The notes beneath the pieces are model-generated. The model did not search any database, was not told the DNA's origin, and saw nothing but the letters and a program-made list of their open reading frames with translations. The translations under genes were made by a program, and so were the position numbers. Below are positions 15,834 to 58,798 of a stretch of DNA of 64,000 nucleotides, in pieces (the stretch's first letter is position 1; the number at the start of each line of letters is the position of its first letter). This DNA is from Cliona cf. orientalis (Eukaryota > Porifera > Demospongiae > Clionaida > Clionaidae), in assembly GCA_963930775.1 (NCBI GenBank), contig OZ005692.1, positions 3,334,135 to 3,398,134 of the forward strand, read 5' to 3'.

Positions 15834-16176
15834 ATGGCGCAGATTTCTGCCGAAGACGTTGCTAATGAAGTCGGCCTCGCGGCTGATAAGCTCCCAAGAC
15901 CTTGCAACAATAGCATTATTCCTTCTCTGGCCGATTGTTTCAGCCAGTGGAGAGTGATATTTGGGTCTTTGCTCAGTGACCTCGATCTTGGTGATGTCCA
16001 TAGAGAAAACGCTACAGAAGGGGAGAAAAGGATAGCTGCTCTACGTAAATGGAAGGACAGGAACGGACGTGGAGCTACTTATAAGATCCTCATAAAAGCT
16101 TTGCTGGATAGCGGCGAAAAATACCAAGCTGAGTCTCTGTGCAAGATTCTAGCAGACCATCTGAAGGACAAAAATG
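15834..16176 (+). CDS. Death-domain first exon, proposed 5' end of gene B
   Basis: ATG at 15834 opens a 114-codon frame ending at the strong donor GTAAGT (16177) in phase 1. Residues about 29-108 fit a death domain: helix 2 with QWRVIF, an LGDVHREN turn, then the hallmark LRKWKDR, GATYKILIKALLDSG and a final amphipathic helix. The tryptophan in LRKW and the ATY..L..AL pattern are the strongest family marks. Death domains mediate homotypic adaptor assembly in apoptosis and innate immunity. The next exon must begin with two codon bases; the exon at 22983 does (G + AA gives Glu). Joining them is an inference over a 6.8-kb intron. The frame read past the donor degenerates and stops at 16383. Alternative: a separate small death-domain gene. 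Confidence 0.75.
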
Positions 16177-16643
16177 GTAAGTGCCAATATTCTATGATCC
16201 ATGTTACAGTATTAAATTCTGACACCCTCCCCTTTGTGGTAGGATATTTAATTTTGTTCCTGGGCCCCGTTGCAACATATCCTTCAACTATAAGATCTCT
16301 CCAACGGTGCCCATGGAGCACCTTGGGAAATATTGACTCGGAAACCTCTTCTTATGCAGCACTGATAGATAGGGACCGAGGTTAATTGTGCCATATGATC
16401 TTCCGGTAGCCAATCAGAGAGTAGCCTCTCATGGGTGTTAAGGTCTGTCTCGGCCACTAAAGCCAATAAAATGTTAATAATATAATTGATTTTACTCAAG
16501 GCTATAAGCAAGTTGGCAACAGTTGATGGGTATCAAACAAAAGAGTGGACCTTCCTTTACTTCAGTAACAATTGCCACGCCCCCTAGTTAATTAACCATC
16601 GGTAGGCGTGGCTTTGAAGTCATCGACTATCTTGGTAAACAAT

Positions 16644-16984
16644 GTCAAATACGGATTTGAAATACCTTACATGAAGGCTTCTATTTAGTTTTTTCCAGTA
16701 TGTTAAGCTTTCTACTATGCCATATACTGTGCACAGTAGATAAGTTTTAAATGCTATGTAAATATTATATTGAGCTGCTGGGAATGTAGCTTCAAAGCTT
16801 CATGAAGGCTAGACATGCTATACTTATAAAAATTGCTTACCTCGAGCACCCTTCTATCGAGTTTTACAGACTTGCACGATGATGAATGCCAACTCCCAGC
16901 AGCTCATCTTGTAGAGTAGCTTGAGTAGTTTCTATGTCATACTTAGATAGAGTCTATACTAGCTCTTTTCAAATCCGTATTCGA
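16644..16984. repeat. MITE with GTCAAATACGGATTTGAAA ends
   Basis: GTCAAATACGGATTTGAAA at the left is matched by TTTCAAATCCGTATTCGAC at the right. The interior also has partly inverted segments around CCTTCATGAAGCTT. No coding frame is visible. Confidence 0.65.
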
Positions 16985-17335
16985 CGAATGTTTTCATCAC
17001 TTGATACGGCTGCCGCCTTTGACTCGCTTGTAGAACGAGAAAAGCCTAGCGACGAACTCAAACTATTCACTACACGTTAAATAGAGCCCTAAGCTAACGA
17101 CTGACACTGTAGATAGCTAACTAACTACGTTTCTAAACTCACTAGCCACTCGCTTCTTGATGGACTGCCAACTTGAGTCAGCCATAGCCATGCCTCCGTA
17201 AAATAAAGCCACACCTCCGTATAATATTCAATTTTCCCCGTATACTTCCGCGCGCGCGCGTATGGCCTGGCCCAGGCCTTAACATGCATGAGCTCGAGCC
17301 TAGGCTCACTTTTGGGGGAGGAGAAAGAGAGCCTA

Positions 17336-18409
17336 GTAGCGTAAAGTGCCAATTATCGACATACGGTTTTCTCCCGCGTGTGCTGTTGCTTAGGAACATC
17401 GCCTGAACTTCGAACTTGGACCAAAAGGTAGGGGGTCGCCAGGGCTACAAGTACCTAAAGTCTCATGGGGCTGCCAATCAAAATACGTCTGCAATGGCAA
17501 TTTTAGCTTATAATTGCGAATGCCAGTTATCAACAGTCGGTACGTATTATCGGCACACCGTATACTTTCAATACAATCAATTATTGTCACTTGGAGCTTT
17601 GTCATCACAGTGCATGCAATCCAAGAGTAAGAATATTATATAAAAAATACTAGCAGGTGCATAATCATGAGCTCTAACTACTGAGACAACTTCATGTTCA
17701 TAGGTGAACTTGTTCGATCTTTATCGTTTTTTCAATCTTGGCAGAAGCGCCTCGGGAACGGCACCATCGCGTCTTTGCCCCTGTATTGAGAAAGTAAGAC
17801 ACTGTGAGGGTCATCTTATCACAAATGAAGCAAAACTTACCTTCAAAAGTCCAGCCTGAAGCACAGAAGCGAGTCGCGATCGACCACGCGAAGTTATTAT
17901 TAAACGCACCACGCCCACTGCCTATACTAAGGCCCTATGTCGATAATCGATACCCGTATTTCCGATAGTTGAAAGACGCGATGGTGCCGTTCCCGAGGCG
18001 CTTCTGCCAAGATTGAAAAAACGATAAGATCGAACAAGCTCACCTATGAACATGAAGTTGCCTCAGTAGTTAGAGCTCATGATTATGCACCTGCTAGTAT
18101 TTTTTATAATTTTCTTACTCGTGGATTGCATGCACTGTGATGACAAAGCTCCAAGTGACGATAATTGATTGTATTGAAAGTATACGGTGTGCCGATAATA
18201 CGTACCGACTGTTGATAACTGGCATTCGCAATTATAAGCTAAAATTGTCATTGCAGACGTATTTTGATTGGCAGCCCCATGAGACTTTAGGTACTTGTAG
18301 CCCTGGCGACCCCCTACCTTTTGGTCCAAGTTCGAAGTTCAGGCGATGTTCCTAAGCAACAGCACACGCGGGAGAAAACCGTATGTCGATAATTGGCACT
18401 TTACGCTAC
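17336..18409. mobile_element. Long foldback element (arms about 440 bp)
   Basis: The left arm (17336-17777) and right arm (about 17973-18409) are near-perfect inverted copies, starting GTAGCGTAAAGTGCC and ending GGCACTTTACGCTAC, around a loop of about 195 bp. Both arms therefore contain the same 70-odd-codon open frames on opposite strands; these are repeat sequence, not genes. A diverged single arm lies at 52471-52705. The arms are similar enough (a few differences per 100 bp) to suggest recent origin or conversion. Confidence 0.88.
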
Positions 18410-18473
18410 GCTCGGCCGATAACACAAGTCGGCCGATAGTCGAGGTTTTACGCTACTCGTACATTTGGGAGTG

Positions 18474-18556
18474 ACCAGGTGTTAAAAGGTCAATATTTTA
18501 CATATAACAGAGGATATCCGTGTTGTTACTGACCTTTTAACATCTGGTCACACCCA
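18474..18556. repeat. Small palindrome
   Basis: ACCAGGTGTTAAAAGGTCA at the left is matched inversely by TGACCTTTTAACATCTGGT at the right, around a 45-bp spacer. Confidence 0.6.
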
Positions 18557-18664
18557 AATGAATGGGTACAAGTGATTCAAAAATTAATGACGATCCAGGT
18601 GTTTGGTGTTTGATGTGATGGTGAAGCAAGTTTGTAGCGGGCGATACTCAGGGTCTTTGACACT

Positions 18665-19502
18665 TAGCGTAAAACCTCGACTATCGGCCATGTTTTTCGC
18701 CTCCGGGCGTAACTCGAAGTAGGAACGGTTCTAGGCTCTACTTCAAAGACCTACAGACTGGTCTTATGGTTCTCTACACAGTGATACAAAAATAATGTAC
18801 CTTTGAACAGCAGACACAGTACAGCGATCTCTTGAAACTCCTGTTCGCTGGCCTGTATTATCGATAACCACCTGGTATTATCGGCTGTACATACACATGC
18901 AGTACAATTATTATCGGCTAAATCGAGCCTTTTTGTCTGTCGACTCTTACCTGTTCAAAATTGCCACTCCTGCTCAACAGTACTGAAACCAGCAGGCGTG
19001 ATTACCCTTTACCAATTACAACTAACTTGTTCTTATGCAGCATTGCTGAAAACGAGCTATGAATTATGATTGATAATGACATGATATAAATGCTAATATT
19101 AACTTCGGCGATGCTTTCTGGGGTTCATATGAGTACTGTCTCCTTTCTTCTGATCTGGATAAAAATAAGTCAAGTGTCTAATATCAGATTAGGCGATGTA
19201 GCTAGCCTCCAGCCCTCATGATCGGCCACCATTCAGTACGCCATCTTACGCCCATTCAAATTGGTTCAACACCATTCTGTACCCTTCTCTCCCTTGTATT
19301 TAAGTTCTAGAAGTAAGTTAAGCCTACCTGGTGTCTTCAAACGAGTCTAAAACCTGATCCAGTCTTCGAGCATAAATGGAGCTCTGCATCATCTTTGTAA
19401 ATTTTTCCGTATAAACTCGTAAATGTCCGTAAAATAGTGGTCGATAATCGATGTACGCTCGGCCGATAACACAAGTCGGTTGATAATCGAGGTTTTACGC
19501 TA
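18665..19502. mobile_element. TAGCGTAAAACCTCGA element, copy 1 (838 bp)
   Basis: It begins TAGCGTAAAACCTCGACTAT and ends ATCGAGGTTTTACGCTA, which are inverted repeats. The interior is repeated with high similarity at 20680-22036. No transposase is visible. Its uninterrupted version of the 19198-19230 region defines the insertion site of the nested element in copy 2. Confidence 0.85.
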
Positions 19503-19558
19503 GTAGCTGAAGGTTCAAATGCCAAAGTGCTCCTTTCTTTTTTCGATCACACCAGTAG

Positions 19559-19890
19559 CAGTGGCGGATGTAGGATTAATTGAAGGGGGTTCTGTTCTAT
19601 TCTTGCGCGTGAAGCGCGCAAAATTTTTAGAAGCCACACCCACTTTCCTCTAAACCACGCCCATTTTCGATGGTTTTCAGAATAACTACCAGCCCCTACC
19701 AGTCCAATCGATGGATTTTGAACGAATTTTCTGCTAAAGCATGCTAAGGTGAGCCATAGCAGCAGTTTTCTTAGTTCTGTAGCCTGAGAGGGGGGTTCCA
19801 GTTAGCCTATCATCAGTACTTCTTATAACTAGGTGCAGCCCAAAGGGGGGTTCTGTCGAAACCTCCGAAACCCCCCTAAATCTGCCACTG
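19559..19890. mobile_element. CAGTGGCGGA element, short copy, with 5-bp target duplication
   Basis: It starts CAGTGGCGGATG and ends CATCTGCCACTG-type sequence (AAATCTGCCACTG). AGTAG lies immediately before (19554-19558) and after (19891-19895), a second independent 5-bp duplication for this family. The interior keeps the family's GCGCGTGAAGCGCGC palindrome. Relative to the 721-1661 copy it lacks about 600 bp internally. Confidence 0.85.
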
Positions 19891-20679
19891 AGTAGATACC
19901 ATGCTGTATATGCACGGAAGTTGACAATAAATCATGTGCGTACGTGTTTCTTTTCACCCGGGTTTACCTTAAAGAAATGCCTTTTGTTTCTGGGCCATTG
20001 GGTTGACAAAGCTTACAGAAGTTCTGTCACTTGTGCACACGATCGCAAGTGTGACTACTAAGACCACATCGCCAGATAACCACCTAGCGGCAATAGGCAC
20101 CACAGCCCCTCGGAGGCACCCAGTCCTAATTATAGATCGTGAAACTTTCATGATTTTTTGTATGGTTGTAATTACTAATTACAAGGCTTATACAATGCAA
20201 ACATGTGGGTGTCCACTGCTCCGTAGGGCATTTCTGACAATATTTTGACACTGGAGTGGATAAAATGGATATAATATAATTGTTGAGAATACTAGAATCT
20301 GTATCTAGCCTGCACAGCATTAGATCCTGCTTCAACTTCTCAATAAAATACTGTATGATTGACAACTTGAACAACAGTAAAAATGAAACACAACTGACTT
20401 ACTTATATAGAATAAAACTGGTCAAACTGGTTTTTAGAGAATATTTTAGAAGAAAATCTGCAAAAACACGCACAGACAGATTCACAGAGATAATTAAAAG
20501 TAACACTACAGATTCGCACAATCAAAGTATTGCACAACTCAACACTAGAACTTAATTAAGAATGATTGCACAACCAACTAAGTTGACATTACATCAAAAG
20601 TGGACCTTTTCAACAGATCAGATTTGGGAAAACCCTCCGTAAGGGATCCGCACGCGATTTGCACGATGCATGTTTTTAG

Positions 20680-22036
20680 TAGCGTAAAACCTCGACTATC
20701 GGCCATGTTTTTCGCCTCCGGGCGTAACTCGAAGTAGGAACGGTTCTAGGCTCTACTTCAAAGACCTACGGACTGGTCTTATGGTTCTCTATACAGTGAT
20801 ATAAAAATAATGTACCTTTGAACAGCAGACACAGTACAGCGATCTCTGGAAACTCCTGTTCGCTGGCCTGTATTATCGATAACCACCAGGTATTATCTGC
20901 TGTACATACACATGCAGTACAATTATTATCGGCCAAATCGAGCCTTTTTTACCAACTCGTTCTCACCGAGATACAGTGAAAACGAGCTATGAATAATCAT
21001 TACTACATTGTATACAATGTATTTTATGATTGATAATGACATGATATAAATGCTAATATTAACTTTGGCGATGCTTTCTGGGGTTCATATGAGACCTGTC
21101 TCCTTTCTTCTGATCTGGATAAAAGTAAGTAAAGTGTCTAATATCAGGTTAGGCGATGTAGCTAGCTTCTAGCTAGTCTATCGAGCTAGACCCTTCCTTG
21201 CGCTTGTATTGTACGCGCGGGGGGAAGGGTCTAGCAAAGGTCACGTTTAATTGAATTTCAGCTGACCAATCAGATTCAACTATCCAAATTCTGGATAGCA
21301 ATTTATGCGTGGGTGAACGCTCGCAATCAGTGTTTATTTGCGATTTCGAGCTTTCGCTTGGATCATTTTGTGTGGCGCTGAAGTACTAGTACTACAGAGG
21401 CAACAGCGAGCGATTTAGAAAACCATTCGTCACCATTTTTGAGAGCTGCCAGAGAAGAGTTGATCATTGAAACGGGAGAGAGTCCGTTCAACACTTGTTT
21501 GATCACCGTCCCAGCCAGGTCAGACTAGTGGAGTGCCTTTTACTCGCTACCTCTGTACATTTCGGCGTTTATTGAGAAGTTCTTTGTACCAACAAAGAGC
21601 TGCCAACCTTGCCATCATCATCATTTTACTGCTTTTCTCGCTCACGGTTTCCGCATTTTAATTAATTGCATTCCAAACGTGACCTTTGCTAGACCCTTCC
21701 CCCGCGCGTACAAAACAAGCGCAAGGAAGGGTCTAGCTCGATAGACTAGCTTCCAGCCCTTACGATCCACCACCATTCAGTACGCCATGTCACGCCCATT
21801 CAGATTGGTTCAACACCATTCTATACCCTTCTCTCCCTTGTAGCTATTTATACGTTGTAGAAGTAAGTTAAGCCTACCTCGTAGCTTCAAACGAGTCTAA
21901 AACCTCTGATCCAGTCTTCGAGCATAAATGGAGCTCCGCATCACCTTTGTAAATTTTTCCGTATAAACACGTAAATGTCCGTAAAATAGTGGTCAATAAT
22001 CGATGTGGGTCGGCCGATAATCGAGGTTTTACGCTA
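20680..22036. mobile_element. TAGCGTAAAACCTCGA element, copy 2, interrupted by a nested foldback
   Basis: Its ends and interior match copy 1 at 18665-19502. The extra length is caused by the insertion at about 21171-21752. Confidence 0.85.
21171..21752. mobile_element. Nested inverted-repeat element (CTAGACCCTTCC ends)
   Basis: The left end GTCTATCGAGCTAGACCCTTCC and the right end GGAAGGGTCTAGCTCGATAGAC are inverted copies. Secondary inverted pairs (GCAAAGGTCACGTTT with AAACGTGACCTTTGC) lie just inside. Copy 1 of the host element lacks it (GTAGCTAGCCTCCAGCCC), which proves an insertion. Flanks contain TAGCTTCT and TAGCTTCC, a possible imperfect target duplication. Confidence 0.8.
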
Positions 22037-22289
22037 GTTCATGTCAAAATTTGTCAAAGTTCAGATTTTGTCATTTACATGTTGAACAACCCTTCTTCTA
22101 ACTGTTGCTGTTGTCTACGGAGGCTAGTTGTGCTATACAAAGGCGAAATATGCCTTCATTTTGACCCACCTAGTCAACACAGCTGCCGTACCCGGAGCCA
22201 ATTGCTATGGGCACTAATTAAAATTCCCGCCAGCGGGCTATCTAGATACAGCTAGGTTCGTCCAACTACTGCAAATTAGCTCATCTCAG

Positions 22290-22420
22290 GGGCGTGTCCA
22301 GGATTTGAGGAAGGGAGGTGCTGAGCCCAACGCGCGCAAGCGCGCGCGCAAAATTATTAGCCACGCCCCCAAAGCGTTGACCACGCCCCTCATTAACACG
22401 TTCTTGAAGATAGCTTGATG
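22290..22420. repeat. Fragment of a GGGCGTGTCCAGGAT element
   Basis: CAGGGGCGTGTCCAGGATTTGAGG and the following CGCGCGCAAAATTATTAGCCACGCCCC resemble the left end of the element at 30346-30681. No right end is visible. Confidence 0.5.
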
Positions 22421-22679
22421 ACAAAGAAGGCTGTTTTAGGCCTAGTAGCGACGAGAAACTACCGTTTAGAGCGAGTCCAGTAAGTTTAATGTTGGTCTTA
22501 GCTACTGCTTGATCTTTACGTTCATTGTGAACAGCTCCACCCAGGGCCATTAATTGATTTATGGTTCACGTGTAATATGCAGAAACGCTATACGCGTGCA
22601 TAGTAACGCCTTTAGACCGTAATTTCTCGATTATTGGTGGTGACTGGATCTATATCCATCCCTAAGCCTATTCACTCAG

Positions 22680-22965
22680 TGTTGAGTTAGCCCTGATAAT
22701 GAAAAAGAAAGAAAGAAGAAAGATTGACATTTGAAATGGCCTGTTTTTTGAATGTCTGGTTCTGGCATGTACAATTGTTTTGATGAATGATCTTAGTCTC
22801 AATATATATAGATAATTTGCTGGAGATTCTGATTTTGACACTTAGAAATTTCATAAACTTACCTGTTTTGAGATATTTGGGTATTTGTAATGTATTATGT
22901 ATATGGGGTGTCCGGGCCATCCCTACTTATAGAGTCTACCGACTCTATGGTAACTTAAGATCATT
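22680..22965. repeat. Repeat directly upstream of the module exon
   Basis: AGTTAGCCCTGATAATGA through GAGTCTACCGACTCTATG matches 54477-54722 in the same order and spacing. The repeat covers the first roughly 60 codons of the open frame that starts at 22787, which argues that those codons are not part of the protein. Confidence 0.65.
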
Positions 22966-22982
22966 AATCTGGCAACTTTCAG

Positions 22983-24065
22983 AAACCACCACGACTGACT
23001 GTGATGCAAAGGAAAGTGAATCTGACATAAAATTTCAGTGTCCTTGTGGTGAATGCTCATTAGAAACTTACCTTCAAGACGGTTGTCCAAAATCGTGTAT
23101 TCCGTACCTTGGAATGACAACTCTTAGTGAAGGGGATAGAGAAAATTTGAACTACATGCTCCAAAATGATATCCAAAAAATTATGAAGAGTTTTGGCAAT
23201 CTATCAAATGGAATTTGTGATTCTCTAATACGGCAGGGAGTAACAGTTGAAAAATTAGTCAGAGTGGCTGTCAATTTCAATCACTCTTTACACGACAAAT
23301 TAATAGGATCAACATCGGTTGATCAAGTGTTTACACATCTCACTCAAGAAATGTCATTTTTTAATCATGAAATTTTGGAAGATATAATCAATGTTCTTGG
23401 TGATAAAGATGACAAAGATCACTTAGATGATTATTTTAAGGAGTTTAAGGAATTTTGTAAGCGAAAAGTTTTTGAAATTGAACCAGGCTGTTGTACATGT
23501 TGGCAACGCCTTTCTCAATTGGAACGAAAGAAACTGTTTATTGTAGTTTTACCAACTGGTGAAAATACAATGTTACTTGAAGATGCTGTGAGTATCAAGA
23601 AGATACTTGCAAAAGTTCTTGGTGTCCCACCAGCTACCCTTCATCTCCACCAAATTGACATGGGTAGTGTAATACTTGTATTCTCAGTTCCAGATTGTAT
23701 AGCAGCAGAATTATTTCCGCTGCCAAACGAAAAGATGGGCTTACTGAAGGCGAAGGGTATAGTACTCTTTACACCGCAACATTTGAAATCTAAATCAAAG
23801 ATGTCTGCCATAAAAGATCTCAGAAAGACGCACCAAATAACTGAAACATTATTTGGAGATGATATTGACGGATTCACTGTGATCGCAAATACTGATTCAC
23901 CACCTGCTGATCATGACGAGCGGAAAGAGATTCGTGAACAACTGGGTAGCTCAGCGGAAGTCTCCTTGAGAGCTAGTAAGCAGCCCTGTTTGATGACAAG
24001 AATAGGGAGGGGTGTAAAATCAGCCGTTGGCGGTGCAATAGGAGGTGCAATCAACATGTTTACCG
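22983..24065 (+). CDS. Module exon of gene B: cysteine-rich head, helical region, beta-rich domain, Gly-rich helix
   Basis: A frame open from 22787 is taken to start at 22983, after the acceptor TTTCAG; an alternative acceptor lies before 23039. It ends at the donor GTGAGT (24066) in phase 1 with a G, exactly what copy B exon 1 (36386) requires. Proceeding along it: a CPCGECSLETYL head; a helical stretch with NLSNGICDSL; a predicted bundle with MSFFNHEILEDII; a beta-rich part with LPTGENTMLLEDA and GSVILVFSVPDC; then a flexible segment and TRIGRGVKSAVGGAIGGA. I recall this arrangement from predicted sponge proteins but know no domain name. Stop TAA at 24071-24073 follows if it is unspliced. 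No promoter is seen. It may be the middle exon of a death-domain GTPase or an independent exon. Confidence 0.8.
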
Positions 24066-25406
24066 GTGAGTAATTTATTTGTGACATTACAATTTAACGT
24101 GCATAGTTATCATAATCTAGCTAATCTTATAAGCAGATTGAGCAAATCACTATGTATATGTGTGATCGATGGTTCCCAATAAAGATTCTTGCAAACCCCA
24201 TATTATGCACCCTTAATCACGGTCTGGTTAAAACACGAATCATTCGGTGACAAATTCTCTTATCATAATACCATGATGTATAATATTACGTTGCACAATT
24301 TCACGTAAATAGCTAGTATATTCCTTTTGAAAGTGAGGGGACTGGAGTGTGAAATTACACCAAACATACCCACTTATTAACCATTATTAGAGTTTATTTA
24401 CAGTTCACAATAATAATAATTCAAATATTATAGCTACCGTAAAACGGCTGGTAGAAAAGCAGTGCTTGCAACTGAACAAACAGTTGATTTATACATAGAC
24501 AGATGTTCAAACATTAAAACCTTGCGATGTAACTTCCCGCCAGAACAAATTCACTTGATTAAAATTGAAGCAAGCATGAGACTAAATGAGGCTGGCTAAG
24601 TAATAGATATAGTAGCTAAAGCTAGCTGCCTATAGAAATGCAAGGTGCATGTCAGCTGCACCGGGCGTTTACCATCTAACTTCCTAGCGCTGTATCTTGC
24701 GACCAAAAATCATATAAAGAGTGAAGATATAGTTATCAGTGAGTAGCTATAGCTACCATTTATAGATGATAATTCTTATTACCATAGTTAATCGAATACA
24801 ACGCATGATCCAATTTATCGCAAGAAGTTAGCATTTTACGAATTCTCATAACGTTTATTATTTTATGGAGCGATTGACGAACTTTACCAGAAAAATGCGC
24901 GTTTTTCAAATGTGACCCGCTCTGGAAAAACAGACCACTCGCAACTTTCTAATGAAAATCACGTTTTTGGTGTAGATTGATGCAGAAGTTACTGTAGAGT
25001 TCAACGGTCAAAGAGCCAGGCTCTAAAAAGCTTCGTAAGCCGAGTTATGGCCCAAAAATTGTACACGGGTCACCCGTGCCTCAGTTCATAATTTTTCGAG
25101 AAACGGAACGTTTTGTACGTACATAGCTCAACGTTCAATGTTTCCGTATACTCTCCATAATTACACCACGCGGTTAGCGCCATAATGAATTTGCCGGGAA
25201 AGATGGCCACAGAGACAGCACCAGTACAGCAGTCCTGGTCTTAGGGAGAAGATATCGAGAGAAGCAATGGACTCTACACTTTGTAAGTTGTCTATGATTG
25301 TTCTTATAGCTAAGGCTGCATGTAATAAACACCCCTGCGTGTGATTCAACATGAAGTACTTCTGGCACATGAGATAGCCATTCGTAGCTGTGAATTTACT
25401 AGCTAG

Positions 25407-25590
25407 CTGTGTGCACTGTTTGATATGAACTTACGGTTGTGAAAAGCTTTAGCTGTGTGCACTGTTTGATATGAACTTACGGTTGTGAAAAGCTTTACCT
25501 TTGTTGTAGAAAATGTAATTTTGAAGGCTCTATACTGCGCTATGCAGGTTGTGAAAAGCTTTACCTTTGCTGTAGAAAATGAAGGCTCTG
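25407..25590. repeat. Two short tandem duplications
   Basis: A unit of about 46 bp (GCTGTGTGCACTGTTTGATA ... GTGAAAAGCTTTA) occurs twice (from about 25407 and 25452). A second unit (GGTTGTGAAAAGCTTTACC ... GTAGAAAATG) occurs twice (from about 25485 and 25547). Confidence 0.8.
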
Positions 25591-26103
25591 TAGTGCGCTG
25601 TGAGTCTACCAACTGACTGGATGTGATACTCTCACTGTGAGAATGAGTCTGCTCATTGTTTAGATTTGGAAAGCTAAGGTACATGTATAGTAAACAGGGA
25701 GAGTTTGTGTGCATGTTGAAGAGTGTGTGTGTGCATGTACATGTATGATGTGCTTGTAGAAATTTGGGGGGGGGGGGGGGGAGCGAGAGAAGGGCTTAAA
25801 GTCAGCAATAAACATGAGGAAGGAGAGTCAACTAGTCCAGCGTCAGATCGTATACTGTGGGACAAAGTATGTATACAAGCTGGCACATTTTTGAGCTTGG
25901 ATGACGACGAGATAGTGGCTGTTGACTCAACAGTGATTCTGAGACTGATACACTGACAAGGTCTTCTCAGTAGCTGTTGTGAAGTTTGCTGCACAGGTAC
26001 TAGTTCCTTAATTCATCCTCCTCCATAGCCATACAAGTAACATGCATGTCAAATTATCCGTGTATGTAGCTATGTCCATGTAATTTAACTCTGTATTTAC
26101 CTC

Positions 26104-26109
<6 letters not shown>

Positions 26110-26139
<30 letters not shown>

Positions 26140-26164
26140 CTTCTCCCCTCCCCCCCCCCCCCCC
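26110..26164. repeat. (CT)n microsatellite followed by poly-C
   Basis: About 13 CT units, then TTCTTCTCCCC and a run of about 15 C. Confidence 0.9.
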
Positions 26165-27659: not shown

Positions 27660-27750
27660 AAAAAAATCCAAAGATCCAAGCGGGATTCGAACCCACGACC
27701 ACCGCTCCACCAATCCCAGCCCTAGCCCACTGTACCAACCCGGCTCGCCA
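27660..27750 (-). repeat. tRNA-derived SINE-like segment (degenerate)
   Basis: On the minus strand it reads GGTTGGTACAGTGG (A-box-like), a gap, then GTGGGTTCGAATCCCGC, a complete T-arm/B box. Downstream lies a run of nine or more T, a Pol III terminator. Acceptor and anticodon stems do not close into a proper cloverleaf, so it is tRNA-derived, not a tRNA gene. Confidence 0.6.
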
Positions 27751-48600: not shown

Positions 48601-51600
48601 TACCATTTAGCATAGGAGGGTTGCGACGGACGAACGGACGGACGGACGGACAAAGATCGCCAAACGATTTCAGTAACCCCTCCACCTACACTTTGTGGCG
48701 AGGATTAATTACAATTAATACAGGAATACTCATTTTATGAACAAGATGGATAATGGATGATATTGATAATGGGTCGGTATATATAAAATGGGGAGGGAGA
48801 CAAGAGAAACACCCTGAGCTGCTCCACCACGTGCTTCAATGAAATGCTTTCTTAGCCAGTCTCATATACGTCAGCCGTATATGCTCGGATTGTTACAGTG
48901 GTGGGTGTGGTTGTTAGTGTCCTGGATCGTCAGCTGTATTTGCTCGGATTGTAGTGAGTGTGCTTGTTAGTATCCTAGCTGGATCGTCAGCTGTATATGC
49001 TCGTATTGTAGTGGATGTAGTTGTTAGTATCCTGGGCATGACATGCATGGCCATTGCTATTATGCATCCCTAACTATAATACGTACTAAACGTACTTTCT
49101 CTACTCGGTGCAATTAAGGACAGTCTCATCTGTGCATGTTAGTCAATGAAATATGCACATTTTCAGGAGCTAATACTAGTGCTTGAGTGACAATTGATTA
49201 CTGATCATGACATTGAAATTGAAGCCCAACTCTAGTACTTCCATAATATGAAACAGTAAACCACAAATATCTAATCAATTAACTGATATAACCGTGATTA
49301 GCCACACCCTCTAAAACACTATTTGTCATTGTTCCTGTCAGATCTTTCTTACCTTAAGTAGACAAGTTAAATCTAAGCTATACTTTTCTTGATTTTTATT
49401 GAGGGATATTCAGAAATAATATCTTGGTAAGAAAGACAATTGCAAAAAAAAACGCCATTTCAGCTACCCTGATGGTACAATCTTTCACACATGCCCACAA
49501 AGCAGAACCAGCAATCAAGTTTTCCCTTCAGCAGATCCTTAATACGTAAATATCTGGGAGTTTAGTTTTGCACCATTCAAAAATTGCGAACCAACAATAT
49601 TGGAACAATATTGAAACTCGCAAAACGAAAAAAAAATTGCTCGGTTGTTGCAGCTATGTGGTTACATACTGCAGCTACAGCTTGCACTATGCCACTATCA
49701 GGTGACATGACGTCAAACCGCTAATTGGCCACAAATATGCACTCTAAGTGCCATGGCCGTCAGTACAGCGCACGCGATAACACTTGAGACAGTCCTTAAA
49801 CGCACTGACTATGTTTGTAATGTTAATAATAATATTATAGCCATAGTAGAAAGGCGATACCGGGAAATATGTATCATGAATTCATTGCCGTGTAGCTACT
49901 GTTACGAGTGCGAAGCACGAGTAGCAATACAAAAGGCAATGAACGAGTGGTATTTCCAAAATATGTCGTTGTTCTACTGTGGTAATAAGGTATAATATAT
50001 CGTGAGTGAACAACGCTAAACATTCAACCATGGTTCATTTTATGGCAATCATAATATGATGAACACGACTGATATGTATTTTGCACATGACGAATACGAC
50101 TGATACGGGAAATTATCATATGTGTTACCACCCACGTCTTTCCCATATATTAAACTTTGTATTATAAGGGTCGAAGTTCAATATATTGCTGTATAGCGGA
50201 AAATTTTGGCGAGGTTTTTAATTAGGCAATTTGGCGAATTGTGAAGAAAATCGAAAAATTAAAACTCGCCAATATTTAAATTATCACGTAATGACTACGT
50301 GTGCGCATGCGCATGTGAACGAGAGCAGTGCGAATTCAATAAAATTAGATTGATTGCTCACAACCTTCATGACCTTGGTGTAAAACAGAATCGTTTGTCA
50401 GGAATCAATGTTGCTGCTCAAGTTCTTTCAGGTTAAACATCCGACCCTTAAAGATATTGGCGAATTTTAAATTTGGTGATTTGACAAATTGTGAGCGCAA
50501 GCGCATGATGCGATAAACAAGTGACGTAATGCATGGATCAGCTGGCCGGCCGGCCACTCCATTCGCCTGAGTTCTCTACAGCAAGAACGTGCTTCACTTC
50601 TTTGTTCGCATAGTCGAGGTCCTTCCTGCTAAGAGATGAGTAGGCACATGTTGATGACGAAGGTAGCGTAGTGATTCGCCAGATTTAATGCTCGCCAAAT
50701 TTACCCGCTATACTGTATGATAATAGATGATCATACATACTAGCCACAATATTATTGTACGTGATATTATAAACATACTTATTTTAAATTAATTCTAGAA
50801 ATATAAACCTCAAGAGGAAGGAAAAGTGAAAGTAAGGGATTTAGTGAAAGAATTCAGAGATCAGTGCCAAGCTAAGATTACTTCAAGAAACTTCAGCCCA
50901 GCAGAGTTTGAAAAAAGTATGACAAAAATTAATATTCTGAATTGATCATACTTACAAAAATATTTATAATAGGTATTCACGAATTCTTGAATGATAGTGC
51001 TCCAAAGTTACAAAGGGTTTTTGATTCCTCGTGCGGATTTTGGAATGTTCAAACGGCTTTAATGCAACGCATTGAGTATATGGTTGAGGATATATCAAAA
51101 CTTAGATCAAATGCGAGATTGTTGTGTAAAATGGGCCCAGAAGAAGTAATTGAACCACGTAGGTTAAATAATCTATAGGTAGTCTAGTCTAAGAGAATGT
51201 CATTGAATATCTACATTAGATCGAAGGGAAACCATGTCAGAATCAGAAGGCAGGACTTTCAGTGCTCCAAACTTAGCAGATATCAAATTAAAAGTGAAAA
51301 TTCCGTAAGATTGATCATAATAAAACGATCATTAAATGATTACTGCATGATTATTTTTATAAAATACAGGAGTGTATCACTGAGTTGGTGGGAGAGAATT
51401 CTCCAGTCATTGTTTGGGTATCCAATTACCATAATAATATAATTATAATTACATCTTTTAAAACTAATTTAATAACAATAATATAGGTATCTGTATCCTA
51501 GCGAAGTAAAAGATCAAGAGATAAGTGAGGAGTCAGAGAGGAACAATCAACAAAATGAAGATAGCAGTAGTTTACCCATATCACCCGGTGCTTCCTTAAG

Positions 51601-54600
51601 CAGCCAAACCAGTATAACACCAGAAAAAAGAGGAGATGATTCAGATGAATCAGACAGTGATTTTGATGAAGACTATGAAAATATTTTCACAGAAGATGAT
51701 GTTGATGCCACTCCTTTGTCCACTACTCAAGACCCATCGAATTCAATTATTGAATCAGAGAGTAAAGCAGATCACTGCAGTACATCTATACCTGAGGATG
51801 AAACAGATGGCGGAGAAAATAATAAGCAAGGCTCTTCTAGACGAACAAGCTTTTACAGGTTAATGATTCAAAGTTTGAAGTAGTATAATATATATATGCA
51901 CACTACAAATCGACTTTGATACAGAAAATGGACTAAAGAATTGGAGGCTGCTATCTGTGACCTTCAAAAGAATATGGAAATGGAATGTGACAACTATTTT
52001 GAGAGCATTATGCCAGATGCTATCAAGGTCTAATATTCTATAATTTTAGCTTAATATTAGTCCTTCCCCTGCATGGCTAACCTCATACCATCAAACTGGC
52101 AATAATATTACAACCTACTAGTCTAAGATTTTCCCTTGGTGCTGGAATCCATGTGCGCACTGCAGGATCCCCCCCCCCCCCCCCAATACTTACTGCACAA
52201 TCTTCCATGATACAACTGATAAATTTTAATGTCAGATCACATGCACCTATATAATATTTGAATTGGACATATCTATTGGTTTGATATGCATAGTATGGTA
52301 ACTAGAGCTCTGGAGAGCGCATACCCCGTGCACATTGCAGTATGTAGCATGAGCCTTGTTGACAATATTTACCTACATAATATTGTCCTAGATTATGAGC
52401 AGATTAGAAAGCAAATGGCATGCTGTGCGGTATGGTCAACAAAACAGTATTTGCTACGCTCGTGGGGCATAGCGTAAAGTGGCAATCATCGACATACTGT
52501 TTTCTCCCGCATGTGCTGTTGCTTGGAAACGTCACCTGAACTTCAAATATGTACCAAAAGGTAGGGCGTCACCAAGGCTACAAGTACCCAAAGTCTCATG
52601 GGGCTGCCGATAAAAATGCATCTGCAATGGCAATTTTAGTTTATAATTGCGATTGCCGGTTATCGACAGTCAGTACATATTATCGGCACACAGTATACTT
52701 TCAACAAGTATAAAAACAATGAAATTGAAGGATGAAATAGGGATGAGAGGGCCAAAAAGTACACAAACAAGATCTGTAGGGATAATCATGTCCACTATAC
52801 ATCCCTATGATTGCTTTTCTCGATTATAGTTATCATCTGCCTGTTGACGATGATTCATTGGTGCTATCCTTAACCAAGAGAAATTCATGTTATCTCCTAG
52901 CTATTAATTATTATGGCACGTAGGGGTGGGGGACTGACCGTCACTGTACTCTAATATCTATGCCGTCACATTACTGCCTGGTTAGTTTATTCCTGCCACC
53001 TACTCAAAATGTAGAGTGGGCATGATTATCCCTACAGATCTTGTTTGTGTACTTTTTGGCCTTCATACTTCAATTTTATACTTGTTTCTGTTCTTTTTTT
53101 GTTCCTCTCCAGCGTATAAATTCATTAATGTTATCTATTATGGTGTTCTCATTAACTCTTAACTTCTGAATCGTTTTCAATGGTGCAGTGGCATTTATAC
53201 GTATACAGGATGACAACCCAAAGTTGCTCGCATGTGAGTTGTAGCCATGCCCCTCACTACGTTGTCGTTACCGTACCGCGGCCATAGGCGAGCTCTAGAT
53301 CTCGACATATAAGCAGTCAGCTCAGTGACTACTCAGCTAGGTTAAGGACTGTCTAGGTAGCTGTACTCTACGTTTGCACAGCGTTTCACTATAATTAAAT
53401 TCTTTACACCCACAATGATGTAATATTGTCAAAAATTAATAGAAACCATACATGTCCACTTTACGGCTGTGCTCGAACGTTCACGGATCATAAGCCACAG
53501 TTCTGTGGTAATACTGACGACTATAAATAATATAGTTAACATGCAAACGGCCGCACGGAGAGTGATGAATGGGCTCTGAATGGCTTCCAGCTCGAGAAGC
53601 GGCCAAGAAAGCGATGTCTGATGGTTACCTCCACATGCTCAACAGGTACTATATGATTAGTTTAGCATGATCAACGGAGCACTTGTCCTAATTTAAACTT
53701 TATACAAGCTGAGTTACAATCCCAAAAGTACCGCACAAGTGGCATACATAAAAAACATAGTTTCGCTTGTAATTTTTTTCCAAAATGATATTTTTTGAAG
53801 CACTCTGTTGGGTACTAAGTAGTACTTAGTCCCTGCTACCTTCAGTACTGCTAAGGACGCCAGCTTGTGCCTGCAAGTTCATCGTATCAGCAGATCAAGT
53901 CTTCCAACATCACTTTGTTTATTGCATCATAATGAATATAATGACGTCATATTGAAGGCGTGCGCACCTTAATTAAATTCTTTTGGTCTGTTGTTTATAT
54001 CTATACTTTCAATTTTGATTTATGATCATAATATTATGATATGGAGATATAGTGTTACAAACATGCACAACAAAATATGTCTTCAACAGGCTTCCCTGCT
54101 GAGTAGCCTCGTTACCAGGCCCAGAGAAGCTACTACGTATACCACCAATAAACTTACTGTTTTTTTAAGGTTTGCTCCCTAAACAGAAGTTTTTCATGGT
54201 CTAGCACGTTCTCAGGCTTCTGTCAGGTCCGCCTGCATGATCAATACGGTGGTGCGCCGCACCAGTGCCACTAAACTCCAATCACCATTGTAACACATTA
54301 TGAGTATGGGCATTACACGACAAAATGGCATTAGGACACACCCAGTTGTAGAATGCGCTGACCAAACCCATCATTACGTAATTGTCATGTCATGATTACA
54401 CAAAACTAGTGTGACACTGCACTGCGCGCTACAAAATAGAGAGAGAACTAAGCTGAGTGGTCCCAGAGTGTCTAGAGTTAGCCCTGGTAATGACAAAGAA
54501 TGATAACTGGCTAATTTTTACACAGCTGGTTCAGGCATACCTGATCATTTCCATGGATGTGTGGGAGCTTAATAGATAGGTATTCTTGCGTAGATCATGA

Positions 54601-57600
54601 ATATGAAAGTTACAAATCTCAAAATTCAAGTTGCTTGGAGTTATTAACGTTTTGTAATGTATTACATAATATGGCATATCCAGGCCATCCCCACTCTTAC
54701 AGAGTCAACTGACTCTATGATACAATCATTATGGTCAAATATCGTCACTTGGAGCTTTGTCATCACAGTGCAAACAATAAGAAAATTATACCATCAAATG
54801 CATAATTTTCACCGTTAAAAAAAATTTTCGTCTACAACTAGTGTCATAGTTAACGATCACTGTTAATATTCAAAACAACAATACTATCATTTCATTAAAG
54901 TGCACTATCATACATATAATATTATAGACAGAGAGAATAGATCCGCATGAACCAAACAATGACAGTAATATTATAAAGAATGGGTGGCACACGCCATAAC
55001 ATAAGAACAAGAAATATACATAAGGAAATTAAAAGGAAAAGTAAGTACTAATAATTAACCATACTACACTCCCCCACACTAAATCATAAGGTACACAACT
55101 CAAATTAGGATCGAGAGATGATACAATCAAATTCCCCAAAAGTTTACTGACTGTAATGATCAGAAGCATGGTGAGCTCTGGATGGATAACGTCGAGTGCT
55201 AGTTCCTGAAGAGGCCTCAGCTTCGTCAGCGTCATTATCAGAAGTGTTAGGCAGTTCGTCAGATGGATCAGGTTCGACACCAGGACCAGAGTTTCTTGCA
55301 CCATCTCCTGACTCTATTTGCTGGAGTGTTTGAGGGTGTACTACTGGGTAGCTCCCAGCTGTCAGTATCTGAATCAAAGTTCATGTCTTCTCCAGGTCTG
55401 TCCTTCTCTCATCTTAATGAGGAAAGACAGTGGCCCAAGTAGCTATCTGCACAATGACTCCGGATACCCACTTGGATCCAGGACGAAGATTCTTAGCCAT
55501 AACACTGTGGCCAACCTGAACTGGCAAATCCTGGCACTCTGGTCATGATCAGCTTTCTGCTGTGACTGCTTCGCAGTTACACGTGCCTCTTGATCAGGTT
55601 TGAGGAGGTTGAAACGAGTGCAAGTCTGACGTTGGAGAAACAATGATCACGGAGTCACTCCCGTCGTAGCATGTGGAGATGATTGATATATAGGTTAGAA
55701 GGAAATTGGATAGTCAATGATGAAGTGTTTTACCACCACTTAAACTGGTCTTAAGAGCTTGCTTTAGAGACTGTACAAATCGTTCTGCAAGTCCATTTGT
55801 AGCCGGGTGGTACGGCGCACTCTTAATGTGCTTTTATTCCATTCATCTTCATGAAAGTGGTGAACTCATCGATCCGACGTGAACTGCAAGCCATTATCAG
55901 TGACAACTTGAGCAGGCAATCCATAGGCAGCAAACAACTGTCTCAGCACAACGATAGTTGCAGTAGTGGTAGTGCTGGACATAATGAACACTTCTGGCCA
56001 CTTGGAATGCACATCTACGGCAACCAGGAATGTAGCATGCTGGAAGAGCCCTGCAAAATCCAGGTGTATCCTCTCCCACGGCTATGTTGGCCACACCCAC
56101 AGATGTAGTGGAGCACTGTGTGGTGCATTCTTCACTGACTGACACTCCACACAGCTGCTGGCAACTGGTTCGATTTCCTTATTCAAGCCAGGCCACTAGA
56201 AATAGCTACAGGCAACTGCCTTCATCTTCCATACTCCAAGATGATGCCAGTGCAATTCTTGCAGTGAACTTGGTAGGTACTATCCTTCTCGTCCCCCAAT
56301 AAAAGACATCCACTCTCAACTGTCAATTCGTCTTTCCTGTGTTAATAAGGCTTTAGGTCAGAATCTCTCGCTTCTGGCCACCCCTCCACTGTGAATTTGC
56401 AAACTTTGCTGAGAATAGCATCAGTGCGTGTGTTAGTCGGGAGCTTTGCTACCGTGACAGGTAAGCTCTCAAGAGCCCCATTTACACTAGGCCTTTAAAC
56501 CAGTTTGGAAGCCAGCTTAGTTTAAGCTCGCTTAGTGTAAACGCGCTAAACGCTTTACAAGTCGCCTTCTAAACCAATTTGTAAACCACATCTGGGAGAT
56601 GATTTGAAACCGGTTTGAAACCGGTTTTAGGATGTGTTGCTATAAAAACTGTTCATGTGTAAATGCTCTAAGCTGGCTTAAGGCCCTATGTGTAAACGCG
56701 ATTAAAGTGCATTCCAAAGCGGTTTAGTCTAAGCCAGCTTGTATGTGTAAATGGGGCTAAGTTGTACTATGTTGCAAAAAGCAGGCTCAGCAGCAAGGCT
56801 TTCCGTGCGAACAACGTTGAGAGGGAGGCGAGAGAGTGCGTCAGCGTTTGAATGATCATCAGTGGGACGAATCTCAATCGTGTATGAGTAGGCAGCAAGT
56901 AAAAGTAATTATTACCCGAAGGTAGTAAAACCATAGATATTAATTATAGACTTACGTGTACGTATTAAAGTCTATAATATCTATGGTAAAACTACAGGGA
57001 TAGGTCTACACTGTACTTCGCTTACCGCTTGGATCAACCACGCCCATACTACTGGGACATGTATGCAACCAACCCCTTCATAAAAGGTAACAAACTTCCT
57101 CTTTTATGCATGCGCCCCAAGTACTAGGATGACCAGAATGTTGTTTACATGGCTTGCGGCAATATGATTGAGATTTGAGCCGTGAATTATGCACGTGCTC
57201 TATCATTCCACCGTTCCATTCCATTCCATCCCACCAGTCCAGTCCATTCCACCATTCCATTCCATCGTTCCAGTCCACCGAATCCAAATACCCTATAGAT
57301 TCTATGGTCTGTGACACTCTTCAGCAAGATCTGGACACTGCTTTGGATAATCCTGTAATTTGAAGTAAATTACTACCAGTATGTCGATGATCAGTATGGC
57401 AAGTGTCAATAATAGGTACATATCGGTAATATTGGCAGGTTATGTTACTTAGCCAGCGTTTGAAATCATGGTGCGGTACGCAGAGGAGGTTGGATATGCG
57501 TCATCAAATGTCACAAGTGTGTCATGTGGTTGATCATGTGCACCAACGTAAAATGTATAGAAACATATTATGCCAGGTATCAATCGCGCACTCCTGTGCC

Positions 57601-58798
57601 CCGCAAAGTATGCCGTTGGGAAACAATGTGCACTTGACTAAATCAGCATTCCTGCAAATTCCTGCATAAATCAGCGACTTAGTACTGCAGTTATTTTGAT
57701 CACAGATTTAGCCAAACAGGACTTTCTCAGCCTGATTTCAAATCTAGAGAAGGAACAAAGTCTTAATCAGTCTGAAATTCTGACTTTTGATTGATTATGA
57801 GCAATAACAAAGCTTCAGTACTTGTTTGATGGTGACGTATCGTGAAATGTGGCCAACCTTCTCTGTGCAGTACAATAGTGCGTATGTACAGATTTAAATT
57901 TACAATTCGCTATAATATTATTATTAGAACAGCCTGTTGCTCAGGCATGAGAATGCGTATTGGAATATTTCACACTTATGTCCATAGAGCCATCCAGAAA
58001 TATATTTTGCGTAACCAACATACCATAATAGAAATACAAGTGACACACATCTGTACTGTTTTGGTCGGGTTTTAATTGCGAGTATCTATTAATTGCGAAT
58101 TGCGAGTTTTTCTATATTTCGCAATTAACAGATTCGCAAATATAAACGTGCACGTATACTACAGTACGGTACGGGGTCATCCATCGCAATTTAGCCTGTC
58201 TTGACAAGAATGCAATTATTGAACTACGCAATTAAAACCCGTCCTACGGTAATGTTGGTAGTAGCAGGATCAGTGGTATTTCCGGGATGACTACGGATCT
58301 ACAACCAACCAAAATTTCCACTAATTCACAAAATTTTAACCGTACACACGAAATTCATCCATAGATTGCACAGTGTGCGCTCCGGGTATGTGCTCTACAG
58401 ACTTCTAGTTACAGAATTAATTGTTTGTTGAATATACTAAACGGTGATAGATAATTAATAATGTAGATGACATTAAATCAGTTATACAACAACTGTTTCA
58501 GTTCTTTTATAGAGATTATTATCGAAAAACACATGATCGTCTGAATACCTTCGATAAAGATTTCAAAGGACCCCTGGAACAAGAACATCGGCGAATAAAA
58601 GAGGTAGCTAATTCTGTTTATTGTAACTAATTATTGATGTTAGTTGTTAAATGGTCTACATTATAGCTGAACAGTGACATTGACTCCCTACAAAAGGAAT
58701 ATTATGAGTTACAAGCAAAAAAGATTGAAATCAATAAGCTTGCCAAACAGCTGTTTGATGCATATTCAACTGAATTTGCTAGTCATCCTTATAAGTAG
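36386..58798 (+). CDS. Dynamin-superfamily-like GTPase with helical tail, copy B (16 exons)
   Basis: Exons: 36386-36429, 36498-36679, 41671-41788, 41847-41951, 42984-43230, 43290-43707, 46947-47080, 47143-47291, 50799-50916, 50973-51158, 51220-51304, 51370-51417, 51487-51858, 51925-52027, 58502-58603, 58667-58798. The joined frame gives 846 residues to TAG 58796-58798. Long form with the exons at 15834 and 22983: 1322 residues; short form from 29257: 919. G1 GQHNCGKS (about 534-541), G3 DNPGFG (656), G4 TKFD (720-723) and PLCGEWAMAAS (768-778) are intact, so GTP binding is likely. The rest resembles a dynamin-type stalk in being helical, but no stalk, PH or GED domain is recognisable by eye. 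Introns 2, 4, 6, 8 and 14 are 1.0-6.5 kb and full of mobile elements. Function is inferred: GTP-driven assembly, perhaps at membranes, in immune or death signalling. Confidence 0.83.
37478..37880. mobile_element. MITE with ATACCATAGAAACTGGTTG ends
   Basis: The left ATACCATAGAAACTGGTTG and right CAACCAGTTTCTACAGTAT are inverted copies. Many internal copies of GCGCATGCGCTTA-like motifs (TATGCGCTTAACA) are arranged toward both ends. Confidence 0.75.
39053..40201. mobile_element. CAGTGGAACCCC element (1.15 kb), with nested palindrome
   Basis: The left CAGTGGAACCCCTCT and right GCGGGGTTCCACTA are inverted ends. An internal pair, CGGACGGATTGTCG with CGACAATCCGTCCG, forms an inner palindrome at about 39452-39580. 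CAGTGG starts are known in pogo/Tigger-type elements; no transposase is seen, so assignment is open. Confidence 0.65.
40521..40980. mobile_element. GCCGTATTTTC MITE
   Basis: The left GCCGTATTTTCCCGCTATTA and right TAATGAGAAAATACGGTA are inverted with small differences. The interior is related to 32628-32960. Confidence 0.65.
41671..41951 (+). CDS. Copy B exons 3-4: switch I region
   Basis: Exons 41671-41788 and 41847-41951. Exon 3 encodes LLPVYDMSETSLKIK, where the Thr after SE is in the position of the conserved switch I (G2) threonine of dynamin-type GTPases; this assignment is a comparison, not a proof. Three cysteines (VCVQNC, then SCP in exon 4) are conserved with copy A. Copy A has five more residues at the end of exon 3. 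Confidence 0.82.
42984..43707 (+). CDS. Copy B exons 5-6: G3 and G4
   Basis: Exon 5 (42984-43230) encodes PPGWTVSLVDNPGFGE. Exon 6 (43290-43707) encodes IGVTKFDTIY, a basic patch and PLCGEWAMAASRL. The donor at 43708 (GTAATA) is chosen over an earlier GTGAGG because only it keeps phase 2 with exon 7, as in copy A. The stretch VPPGWTVSLV to VTSSAYIYLLQ is nearly identical in both copies, the most conserved part. Confidence 0.88.
44089..44580. repeat. MITE with CAGACCTTATGATAA ends
   Basis: CAGACCTTATGATAA at the left is matched inversely by TTATCATAGGGTCTG at the right. The interior has GTCCGGACA-type motifs facing each other. Confidence 0.7.
45014..45130. repeat. Palindromic MITE with GC-rich inner hairpin
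   Basis: ATTCACTGG and GGAATTATGG at the left face CCATAATTCC and CCAGTGAAT at the right. The centre folds separately (GATC....CTCGGG/CCCTCGGGATC). Confidence 0.7.
45805..45911. repeat. 107-bp MITE with TACCGTAGTGTTCCGG end
   Basis: TACCGTAGTGTTCCGGCAAG at the left is matched inversely by TACCGGGACACTATGG at the right, with AAGCGCCCA motifs inside in both orientations. Confidence 0.7.
46947..47291 (+). CDS. Copy B exons 7-8: helical region after the G domain
   Basis: Exons 46947-47080 and 47143-47291, separated by 62 bp. They encode HYVVGNACVKVWATKII, a long heptad-like helix, and a basic PKRKKRK patch that could act in membrane or nucleic-acid contact or as a nuclear signal; I cannot tell which. 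They align fully with copy A exons 7-8. Confidence 0.85.
48869..49036. repeat. Three tandem units of about 57 bp
   Basis: Units begin CGTCAGCYGTATWTGCTCG at 48869, 48928 and 48985. Each continues with GATTGTAGTG-like and GTTGTTAGTATCCT-like motifs. Confidence 0.85.
50187..50718. mobile_element. MITE with CTGTATAGCGG ends
   Basis: The left CTGTATAGCGGAAAATTTTGGCGAG is matched inversely by the right GCCAAATTTACCCGCTATACTGTAT. Internal TTTGGCGAATT motifs occur in both orientations. Relatives lie at 33000-33403. Confidence 0.7.
50799..52027 (+). CDS. Copy B exons 9-14: helical domain, tryptophan peptide, acidic linker
   Basis: Exons 50799-50916, 50973-51158, 51220-51304, 51370-51417, 51487-51858, 51925-52027. 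Exon 10 encodes a helical segment with FDSSCGFWNVQ. Exon 11 encodes SESEGRTFSAPNLADIKLK, resembling a phosphorylatable linker. Exon 12, only 48 nt, encodes VSLSWWERILQSLFG, an amphipathic, aromatic peptide that might insert into membranes (inference). Exon 13 is Ser/Asp/Glu-rich over about 120 residues and is the least conserved between the copies. The donor after exon 14 (GTCTAA, 52028) is weak; copy A has GTACAA. Confidence 0.83.
52471..52705. repeat. Single diverged arm of the 17336 foldback family
   Basis: AGCGTAAAGTGGCAATCATCGACATAC and about 200 further bases match the left arm at 17338 with scattered changes. The second arm is absent. Confidence 0.8.
53569..53645 (+). CDS. Possible orphan first exon (low confidence)
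   Basis: ATG at 53569 opens 25 codons (start MGSEWLPAREAAKKAM) ending at the donor GTACTA (53646) in phase 2. A TATAAATAATATA stretch lies about 45 bp upstream. The EW....EA.KAM.DGY pattern recalls the start of P-loop proteins I have seen predicted in sponges, but no P-loop exon follows within the window, so it may be a relic or chance. Confidence 0.25.
54477..54722. repeat. Second copy of the repeat found before the module exon
   Basis: Matches 22684-22955 in order (GAGTTAGCCCTGGTAATGA ... AGAGTCAACTGACTCTATG). Confidence 0.65.
55040..56905 (-). pseudogene. Decayed Ty3/gypsy retrotransposon pol (RNase H end, integrase, tail)
   Basis: Reading the minus strand downward from 56905: IEIRPTDDHSNADALSRLP, the end of the RNase H region with the NADALSR signature; then an integrase interval with frameshifts, including a VTDNG-like core near 55900 and YHPATNGLAERFVQSLKQAL near 55740-55810; then AKNLRPGSKWVSG near 55450-55500, the gypsy integrase C-terminal module; and a final STRRYPSRAHHASDHY (55150-55200) typical of gypsy polyprotein ends. 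GTGTGGGGGAG followed by TGTAGTATGG near 55060-55080 may be the polypurine tract and 3' LTR start. Multiple stops and a MITE inside (56472-56760) make it non-functional. Confidence 0.8.
56472..56760. mobile_element. MITE with AGCCCCATTTACAC ends, inside gypsy pol
   Basis: AGCCCCATTTACACTAGG at the left is matched inversely by GTGTAAATGGGGCT at the right. The interior is rich in AAACCGGTTT and GTGTAAACGCG motifs in both orientations. The gypsy pol frame resumes on either side, which shows it inserted into pol. Confidence 0.8.
56930..56995. repeat. Short palindrome
   Basis: ACCATAGATATTA.TTATAGACTT at the left is matched inversely by AAGTCTATAATATCTATGGT at the right. Confidence 0.7.
57195..57290. 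repeat. CCATT/CCAGT-rich simple repeat
   Basis: Imperfect CCATTCCATTCCATC and CCAGTCCAGTCC units. Open frames on both strands here are artefacts of this repeat. Confidence 0.75.
58054..58249. repeat. MITE with GGTCGGGTTTTAATTGCG end
   Basis: The left TTGGTCGGGTTTTAATTGCG faces the right GCAATTAAAACCCGTCCTACGG. A relative lies near 37073. Confidence 0.65.
58502..58798 (+). CDS. Copy B exons 15-16: C-terminal coiled coil
   Basis: Exons 58502-58603 and 58667-58798. They encode FFYRDYYRKTHDRL, then a charged coiled coil ending EFASHPYK before TAG. They align with copy A exons 15-16 except for the last few residues. They are separated from exon 14 by the 6.5-kb intron, but frame, phase and order agree with copy A, which makes the link secure. 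Confidence 0.85.

Follow-up and report, generated by a model that had tools for sequence, protein, structure and literature searches.

Amphimedon has 357 TRADD-N proteins of the NCOA6 clade, most of whose architectures place one to three Death-like domains before TRADD-N and end in a variable C-terminus, according to the main text of Kaur et al. (2021; PMC8195603). The same text describes TRADD-N of the DEDD2 clade fused to AIG and GBP GTPases in other animals, and proposes that such fusions arise partly via reverse-transcribed segments (PMC8195603). A zebrafish GBP with a CARD is reported to need GTPase activity for function but not for inducing ASC oligomerization (PMC4932187). Here we analyze a window of 64,000 nucleotides from Cliona cf. 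orientalis (GenBank assembly GCA_963930775.1, contig OZ005692.1, positions 3,334,135 to 3,398,134), in which a Death-domain exon, an exon carrying a recurrent module and a GTPase gene, copy B, follow one another on the forward strand. Positions are those of the window unless a contig is named, and features lie on the forward strand unless noted.

Judged by its predicted architecture, the locus belongs to the theme of Death-like domain, TRADD-N and variable C-terminus. The explanation we favor, with a probability of about 0.5, is that copy B gained a second, upstream 5' end: a Death and TRADD-N-like cassette, fused within an exon with a duplicate of the GTPase's first coding exon, with both a long and a short product. 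The parts, their reading frames, the family-wide pairing of Death exon and module, and the in-exon fusion are read directly from the DNA.

Layout of the locus and its fusion junction

The Death-domain exon (15834-16176) encodes 114 amino acids from an ATG start and ends in ATG before the donor GTAAGT, in phase 1. The module exon (22983-24065) is preceded by AG, followed by GT and also leaves in phase 1. Its larger part (22983-23800) is the TRADD-N-like module, with a Cys-rich start, a helical-looking region and an alpha/beta-looking C-terminal half. The rest (23801-24065; MSAIKDL...INMFT) is a GTPase first-exon segment, in frame with the module in the same exon and ending in CCG before the donor GTGAGT, in phase 1. 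Copy B follows in 16 exons with GT-AG at all 15 internal introns. Exons 1-6 (36386-36429, 36498-36679, 41671-41788, 41847-41951, 42984-43230 and 43290-43707) encode an N-terminal segment and the GTPase domain. Exons 7-16 (46947-58798) encode a conserved region, an acidic linker in exon 13 and a coiled-coil-looking end with the stop.

Joined, these 18 exons give 3,969 nt, or 1,323 codons whose sole stop is terminal at 58798, and a predicted product of 1,322 residues. The initial annotation had reported this join, its phases and its single stop, and all came out the same on recomputation. It had also proposed one 43-kb gene; the DNA permits the order Death-module-GTPase, but a further exon at 29257 is probably the GTPase's own start, so at least two products are possible.

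The GTPase body is secure, since an open, matching tandem paralog, copy A, lies in the same window (3860-9905, its last base being our choice). Its 16 exons match the structure of copy B and run for 856 codons without a stop. The first exon of copy A (L085; C4:3321003-3321263), some 13 kb ahead of the window, starts with ATG, reads MSGIKDLRQKHQTTETSFGG... and ends in the same phase and with the same residues as the module exon.

This first exon locates the fusion. The GTPase segment of the module exon opens with Met directly after the last residues of the module, at the place of the copy A start codon and close to the normal exon end of the module family. Module-exon tail and L085 are 80% identical in nucleotides. 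Their homology covers 23798-24076, from 3 nt ahead of the start codon to donor position +11, and then stops; the introns beyond do not align. Reverse transcription, gene conversion and segmental duplication are all candidate routes for this copy, although retention of the donor makes spliced mRNA a less likely template. Since the body still has its introns, we reject the possibility of a spliced retrocopy of copy A.

The exon at 29257-29473 (MNPGETETSFGG...) has its own ATG, joins in phase to 36386 and gives with the body an open reading frame of 919 amino acids. Its dS from the other two copies of the first exon (exon 0) is 0.73-0.75, and by eye it has in common with the copy A first exon a 12-nt stretch of 5' untranslated region, TTGCTCATTCGA, directly before the ATG. 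From its own ATG, its distance and the common upstream stretch, we conclude that it is probably the native first exon of copy B, and that the Death-module end is an added second start. A separate short GTPase of 919 residues is therefore also likely.

A Death-module cassette across the genome

We searched the 216.8 Mb genome (149 contigs) with the module and the Death exon, scoring the best candidates, and found at least 114 and at least 121 matches. Pairing was counted on 32 of the 114 module matches, those with at least 51% identity, leaving out short fragments and the tail-only match of copy A. On the Death side we used 32 of 121 matches, namely the 30 best and two on C6 with 29-30% identity that were chosen for their adjoining module copies; the remaining 89 did not enter the count. 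Of the 32 close module copies, the window included, 30 have a same-strand Death exon no more than 20 kb upstream, and for 26 the distance is within 4 kb; two module copies on C15 have one Death exon in common. Inspected by eye, most printed loci have the Death donor and the module acceptor at the same position and in the same phase, and GT stands at the Death-exon end in 27 of 28 (it is not visible in L058). The final 21 nt of the window intron ahead of the module match three paralogs at 95%. The conserved pairing, donor, acceptor and phase, with this 21-nt match, make the Death-to-module join, which sequence alone would leave the least certain of the joins, the family norm. On this sequence comparison the 5' half of the locus is a genome-wide cassette, not a chance joining.

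The window's Death-module intron, at 6.8 kb, is longer than the family norm. It holds a direct repeat with 97% identity between its units (18665-18934 and 20680-20949), and its segment 17972-18409 is 96% identical to intron sequence adjoining two Death exons on C1, possibly a mobile repeat. Similarity to two C1 loci also occurs upstream (74-78% over 423 nt), again possibly a repeat.

The initial annotation had called the first exon a death domain, and the PF00531 search bears this out at the level of the family. In an alignment without a duplicate (L057), an interrupted copy (L058) and two fragments (L083, L084), each of the 26 members has a match with an E value of 1 or less, the best being 2.5e-6. 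The family profile in turn retrieves the death domains of THOC1 (2e-4), FAS (0.004) and CRADD (0.005).

The C-terminal half of the module appears to be TRADD-N-like. The Pfam family TRADD-like_N (PF20694) gives weak matches at E up to 1 in 9 of 23 aligned module members (best 0.0036), and searched against the genome it gives 24 matches over its cut-off, 8 of them at the C-terminal end of module-family matches. As a hallmark of TRADD-N, a highly conserved Ser has been described in the turn that links strands 2 and 3 (PMC7159879). Serine is found at this place in 18 of the 23 aligned copies in all, the window among them, and Cys in the other 5, with the turn placed by eye and not from a structure. 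The alignment holds the window and 22 of the loci L010-L038; we excluded seven, of which two were interrupted, four truncated and one a duplicate. The Cys-rich, helical-looking N-terminal part is without family assignment, and when a profile of the module was run against solved structures, the best match was a chemotaxis protein (E = 0.22). The 'sponge module' of the initial annotation is a recurring unit, though its TRADD-N-like adaptor part and the published Death-like and TRADD-N theme had been missed. With L038 also left out, the window module has a mean dN/dS of 0.367 against 21 paralogs (dS 0.37-0.72); the mean over a random sample of paralog pairs (n = 63) is 0.384.

Elsewhere in the genome, by its sequence matches, the module is usually followed by a fibronectin-III exon. 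An fn3 frame downstream of one module locus has matches within 1.5 kb in up to 26 others of the 29 fetched loci, not counting the window's own, and one such example matches PF00041 at 1.1e-14. In one locus (L027; C5:4949397-4950194 and onward) the module runs into NACHT in one frame and one exon (PF05729, 2.3e-24). This is the second case in which the cassette has taken up an NTPase switch, and no upstream Death exon is among the matches listed. Neither fn3 nor NACHT homology was found in the window. Scanned in three forward frames, the stretches 16177-22982, 24066-29256 and 29474-36385 gave no Pfam match at E 0.1, nor did 9906-15833, upstream of the Death exon. We reject another 3' partner for the Death-module unit on the missing fn3 and NACHT homology together with the empty forward frames of the introns. 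As NACHT is not among the matches for the predicted protein or these frames, the protein does not class as an NLR.

Products of the locus and class of the GTPase

We put the odds that the predicted long protein, a Death-TRADD-N-dynamin-like GTPase of 1,322 residues, is made at slightly better than even, shaded down a little because its donor at 24065 scores poorly. Splice sites were scored with a small model built from copies A and B, which supplied 30 sites of each kind (donor and acceptor). Scores are ordinary for the Death donor (7.4) and for the donor at 29473 (6.5). The exon-1 acceptor of copy B (4.6) is near the bottom, and that of copy A (2.2) is under all.

Several results weigh against the favored explanation. 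The module donor at 24065 scores 1.9 and ties with the lowest of the 30, 358 of the 1,206 GT sites in 16200-36300 score as well, and the module acceptor (-0.2) is under all 30. The 29473 donor outscores the module donor and offers a good alternative start. The tail of the module exon appears to be a recent copy or conversion and not part of an old stable gene, because its dS from the copy A first exon is 0.198 (82 codons) against 0.470 for the A and B bodies and its last 69 nt (window about 23996-24064) are identical to L085. With a dN/dS of 0.74, the tail shows no sign of being under selection. In the window itself, the Death exon alone matches PF00531 at 2.7e-4 with 21.5 bits, 1.1 below the cut-off of 22.6, and the module alone matches PF20694 at 0.0036 with 17.5 bits, below the cut-off of 23.7. 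The cassette is found beside only one of about eight GTPase copies, with no module or Death match, by eye, near the others among those listed, which leaves the fusion without the backing of a second case. Finally, Dynamin_M and GED are absent among matches up to E 10 (a range in which the HMMER filters drop most matches above 0.1).

The strongest competitor, a serious one that we nonetheless consider less probable, has two independent products. Copy B would start only at 29257-29473, and the Death-module unit would be a short adaptor, ending either in an unseen exon or, by read-through of its donor, at the stop codon TAA (24071-24073); the 1,322-residue protein would not be made. The 29257 exon suits this well, with its in-phase join, the 12-nt stretch in common with copy A, a distance from the other exon-0 copies as expected of an older native exon, and the better donor. 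The fn3 exon that follows most other fetched family loci is also in its favor. Against it, the window's cassette has lost the normal exon end and the fn3 exon and instead continues, in frame, as GTPase first-exon sequence that ends at a GT donor in phase 1, and no other partner is seen downstream.

The initial annotation had proposed a dynamin-type G domain, and the Dynamin_N search agrees: the full predicted protein matches over the cut-off (7.6e-13), and the G-domain part matches nearly the whole model at 1.3e-13 (51.7 bits against a cut-off of 27), by far the best family. Dynamin_N matches four of six aligned GTPase copies, some of the six being partial. G domains carry the motifs G1 GxxxxGK[ST], G3 DxPG and G4 [TN]KxD. 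Copy B has them intact as GQHNCGKST, DNPG and TKFD; G3 and G4 are invariant in the six aligned copies, and G1 is present in the three rows that cover it. Given that neither Dynamin_M nor GED matches, we do not file the protein as a classical dynamin; the most fitting label on sequence is a GTPase whose G domain is of dynamin type. GBPs, which belong to the dynamin superfamily, are a separate case: their G-domain model PF02263 is not among the matches for the predicted protein, which is thus not classed as a GBP, and the genome's 19 GBP matches sit on other contigs.

The GTPase could instead belong elsewhere among the TRAFAC GTPases (septin-, GIMAP- or AIG-like), in which case dynamin-type membrane assembly would not apply; this is compatible with the other readings. 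The general model MMR_HSR1 is also over its cut-off, some members have weak Septin or IIGP matches, and Dynamin_M, GED and GBP are not among the matches listed. Searches of solved structures with the GTPase returned P-loop proteins, best GTPase Der (1.9e-4; 0.0076), with a bacterial dynamin-like protein at 0.38 and 0.28, and no structure matched convincingly beyond P-loop GTPases. We consider such a placement unlikely, given the lead of Dynamin_N, its near-complete coverage and its recurrence among the copies.

Besides copies A and B, the approximately eight GTPase places comprise a copy C that lies past the window, four places at C4:3.74-3.93 Mb and a single one on C1. Between A and B, dN/dS is 0.32 over 844 codons, 0.19 in exons 2-6 (the G domain), 0.32 in exons 7-12, 0.93 in exon 13 and 0.29 in exons 14-16. 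The exon 13 linker (51487-51858; copy A 8316-8681) is acidic, Ser-rich and nearly unconstrained in an otherwise constrained protein. By eye, the window also holds a tyrosine-recombinase-like end at 1-240 (no Pfam match at E 0.1), a LINE-like reverse transcriptase remnant at about 2200-3060 and retroelement integrase-like remnants at 55200-56500 on the minus strand.

That the Death-module insert is an unused relic, a recent segmental copy beside copy B still open by recency, is improbable: the recent exon-0 copy with its 69 identical nucleotides, the sole occurrence beside this GTPase, the long repeat-bearing intron and the weak splice sites would fit, but the Death exon, the module and the tail each stay open and their splice phases match, and the module's mean dN/dS lies near that of the paralog pairs, a value that does not date its arrival here.

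Proposed mechanism and comparison with known systems

If copy B has both starts, a transcript from 15834 would splice from 24065 to 36386 and give the 1,322-residue long form, and the native start at 29257 would give the 919-residue GTPase without adaptor. NACHT clusters signaling domains in NLRs, a GBP with a CARD may do likewise in zebrafish, and the long form may act like an NLR whose NACHT switch has been swapped for a GTPase that assembles with itself. When GTP drives this assembly, in which the short form and the tandem paralogs would take part and whose site is probably a membrane that has been damaged or invaded, Death and TRADD-N units would come near enough to one another to recruit downstream Death-fold and TRAF-type partners. 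This recruitment would start an inflammatory or death response. Given that the long protein is made, we hold this NLR-like mechanism tentatively, at less than even odds. The 'sensor or effector' role suggested in the initial annotation is plausible for the predicted protein. It is possible, though we would not lean on it, that the locus encodes an innate immune receptor in which a dynamin-type GTPase stands in place of NACHT and couples GTP-driven assembly at membranes directly to Death/TRADD-N signaling, after a recent joining of a multicopy cassette's exon end to a GTPase start codon.

By title or abstract, searches of an open-access library showed no described Death-TRADD-N-dynamin protein; a figure and the supplementary tables of Kaur et al. 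(2021) could contain one. What would be new is the predicted combination of known immune parts, as the Death/TRADD-N theme and GTPase-death-fold fusions are both already known. Two reported themes meet at this locus: Death/TRADD-N units that gain new domains at the C-terminus, and the fusion of large GTPases with death-fold domains known from fish GBPs. Should the long form be made, the two would have been combined independently in an animal whose immune expansions are sponge-like. The point at which the end of the module exon meets the GTPase start codon is legible base by base, and it is relevant to the proposal that reverse-transcribed segments contribute to such fusions (PMC8195603). If the reading is true, the locus is a readable case of immune-domain shuffling in such animals.

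One of the closest likenesses is with the TRADD-N expansions (NCOA6/DEDD2 clade) of marine invertebrates, which have a constant N-terminus of Death-like domain and TRADD-N, many genomic copies and a variable C-terminal domain (PMC8195603). Unlike here, the C-termini named for Amphimedon are ankyrin repeats, SH3-LRR, kinase, MATH, SH2, PDZ, caspase and others, and the word 'dynamin' does not occur in the main text (PMC8195603). Zebrafish Gbp3 and Gbp4 join a large GTPase to a death-fold domain, a CARD, and act in inflammasome signaling (PMC4932187); their CARD is C-terminal, they are described without TRADD-N and their GTPase is a GBP domain, which is not among the matches listed for the protein predicted here. 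Sponge NLRs with an N-terminal Death domain (NLRDs) combine Death with an NTPase switch, as predicted here, but carry a NACHT/STAND NTPase and leucine-rich repeats where this locus has a GTPase (PMC12909245). The C5:4949397 copy in this same genome, which fuses the same module to NACHT, recalls that NLRD design.

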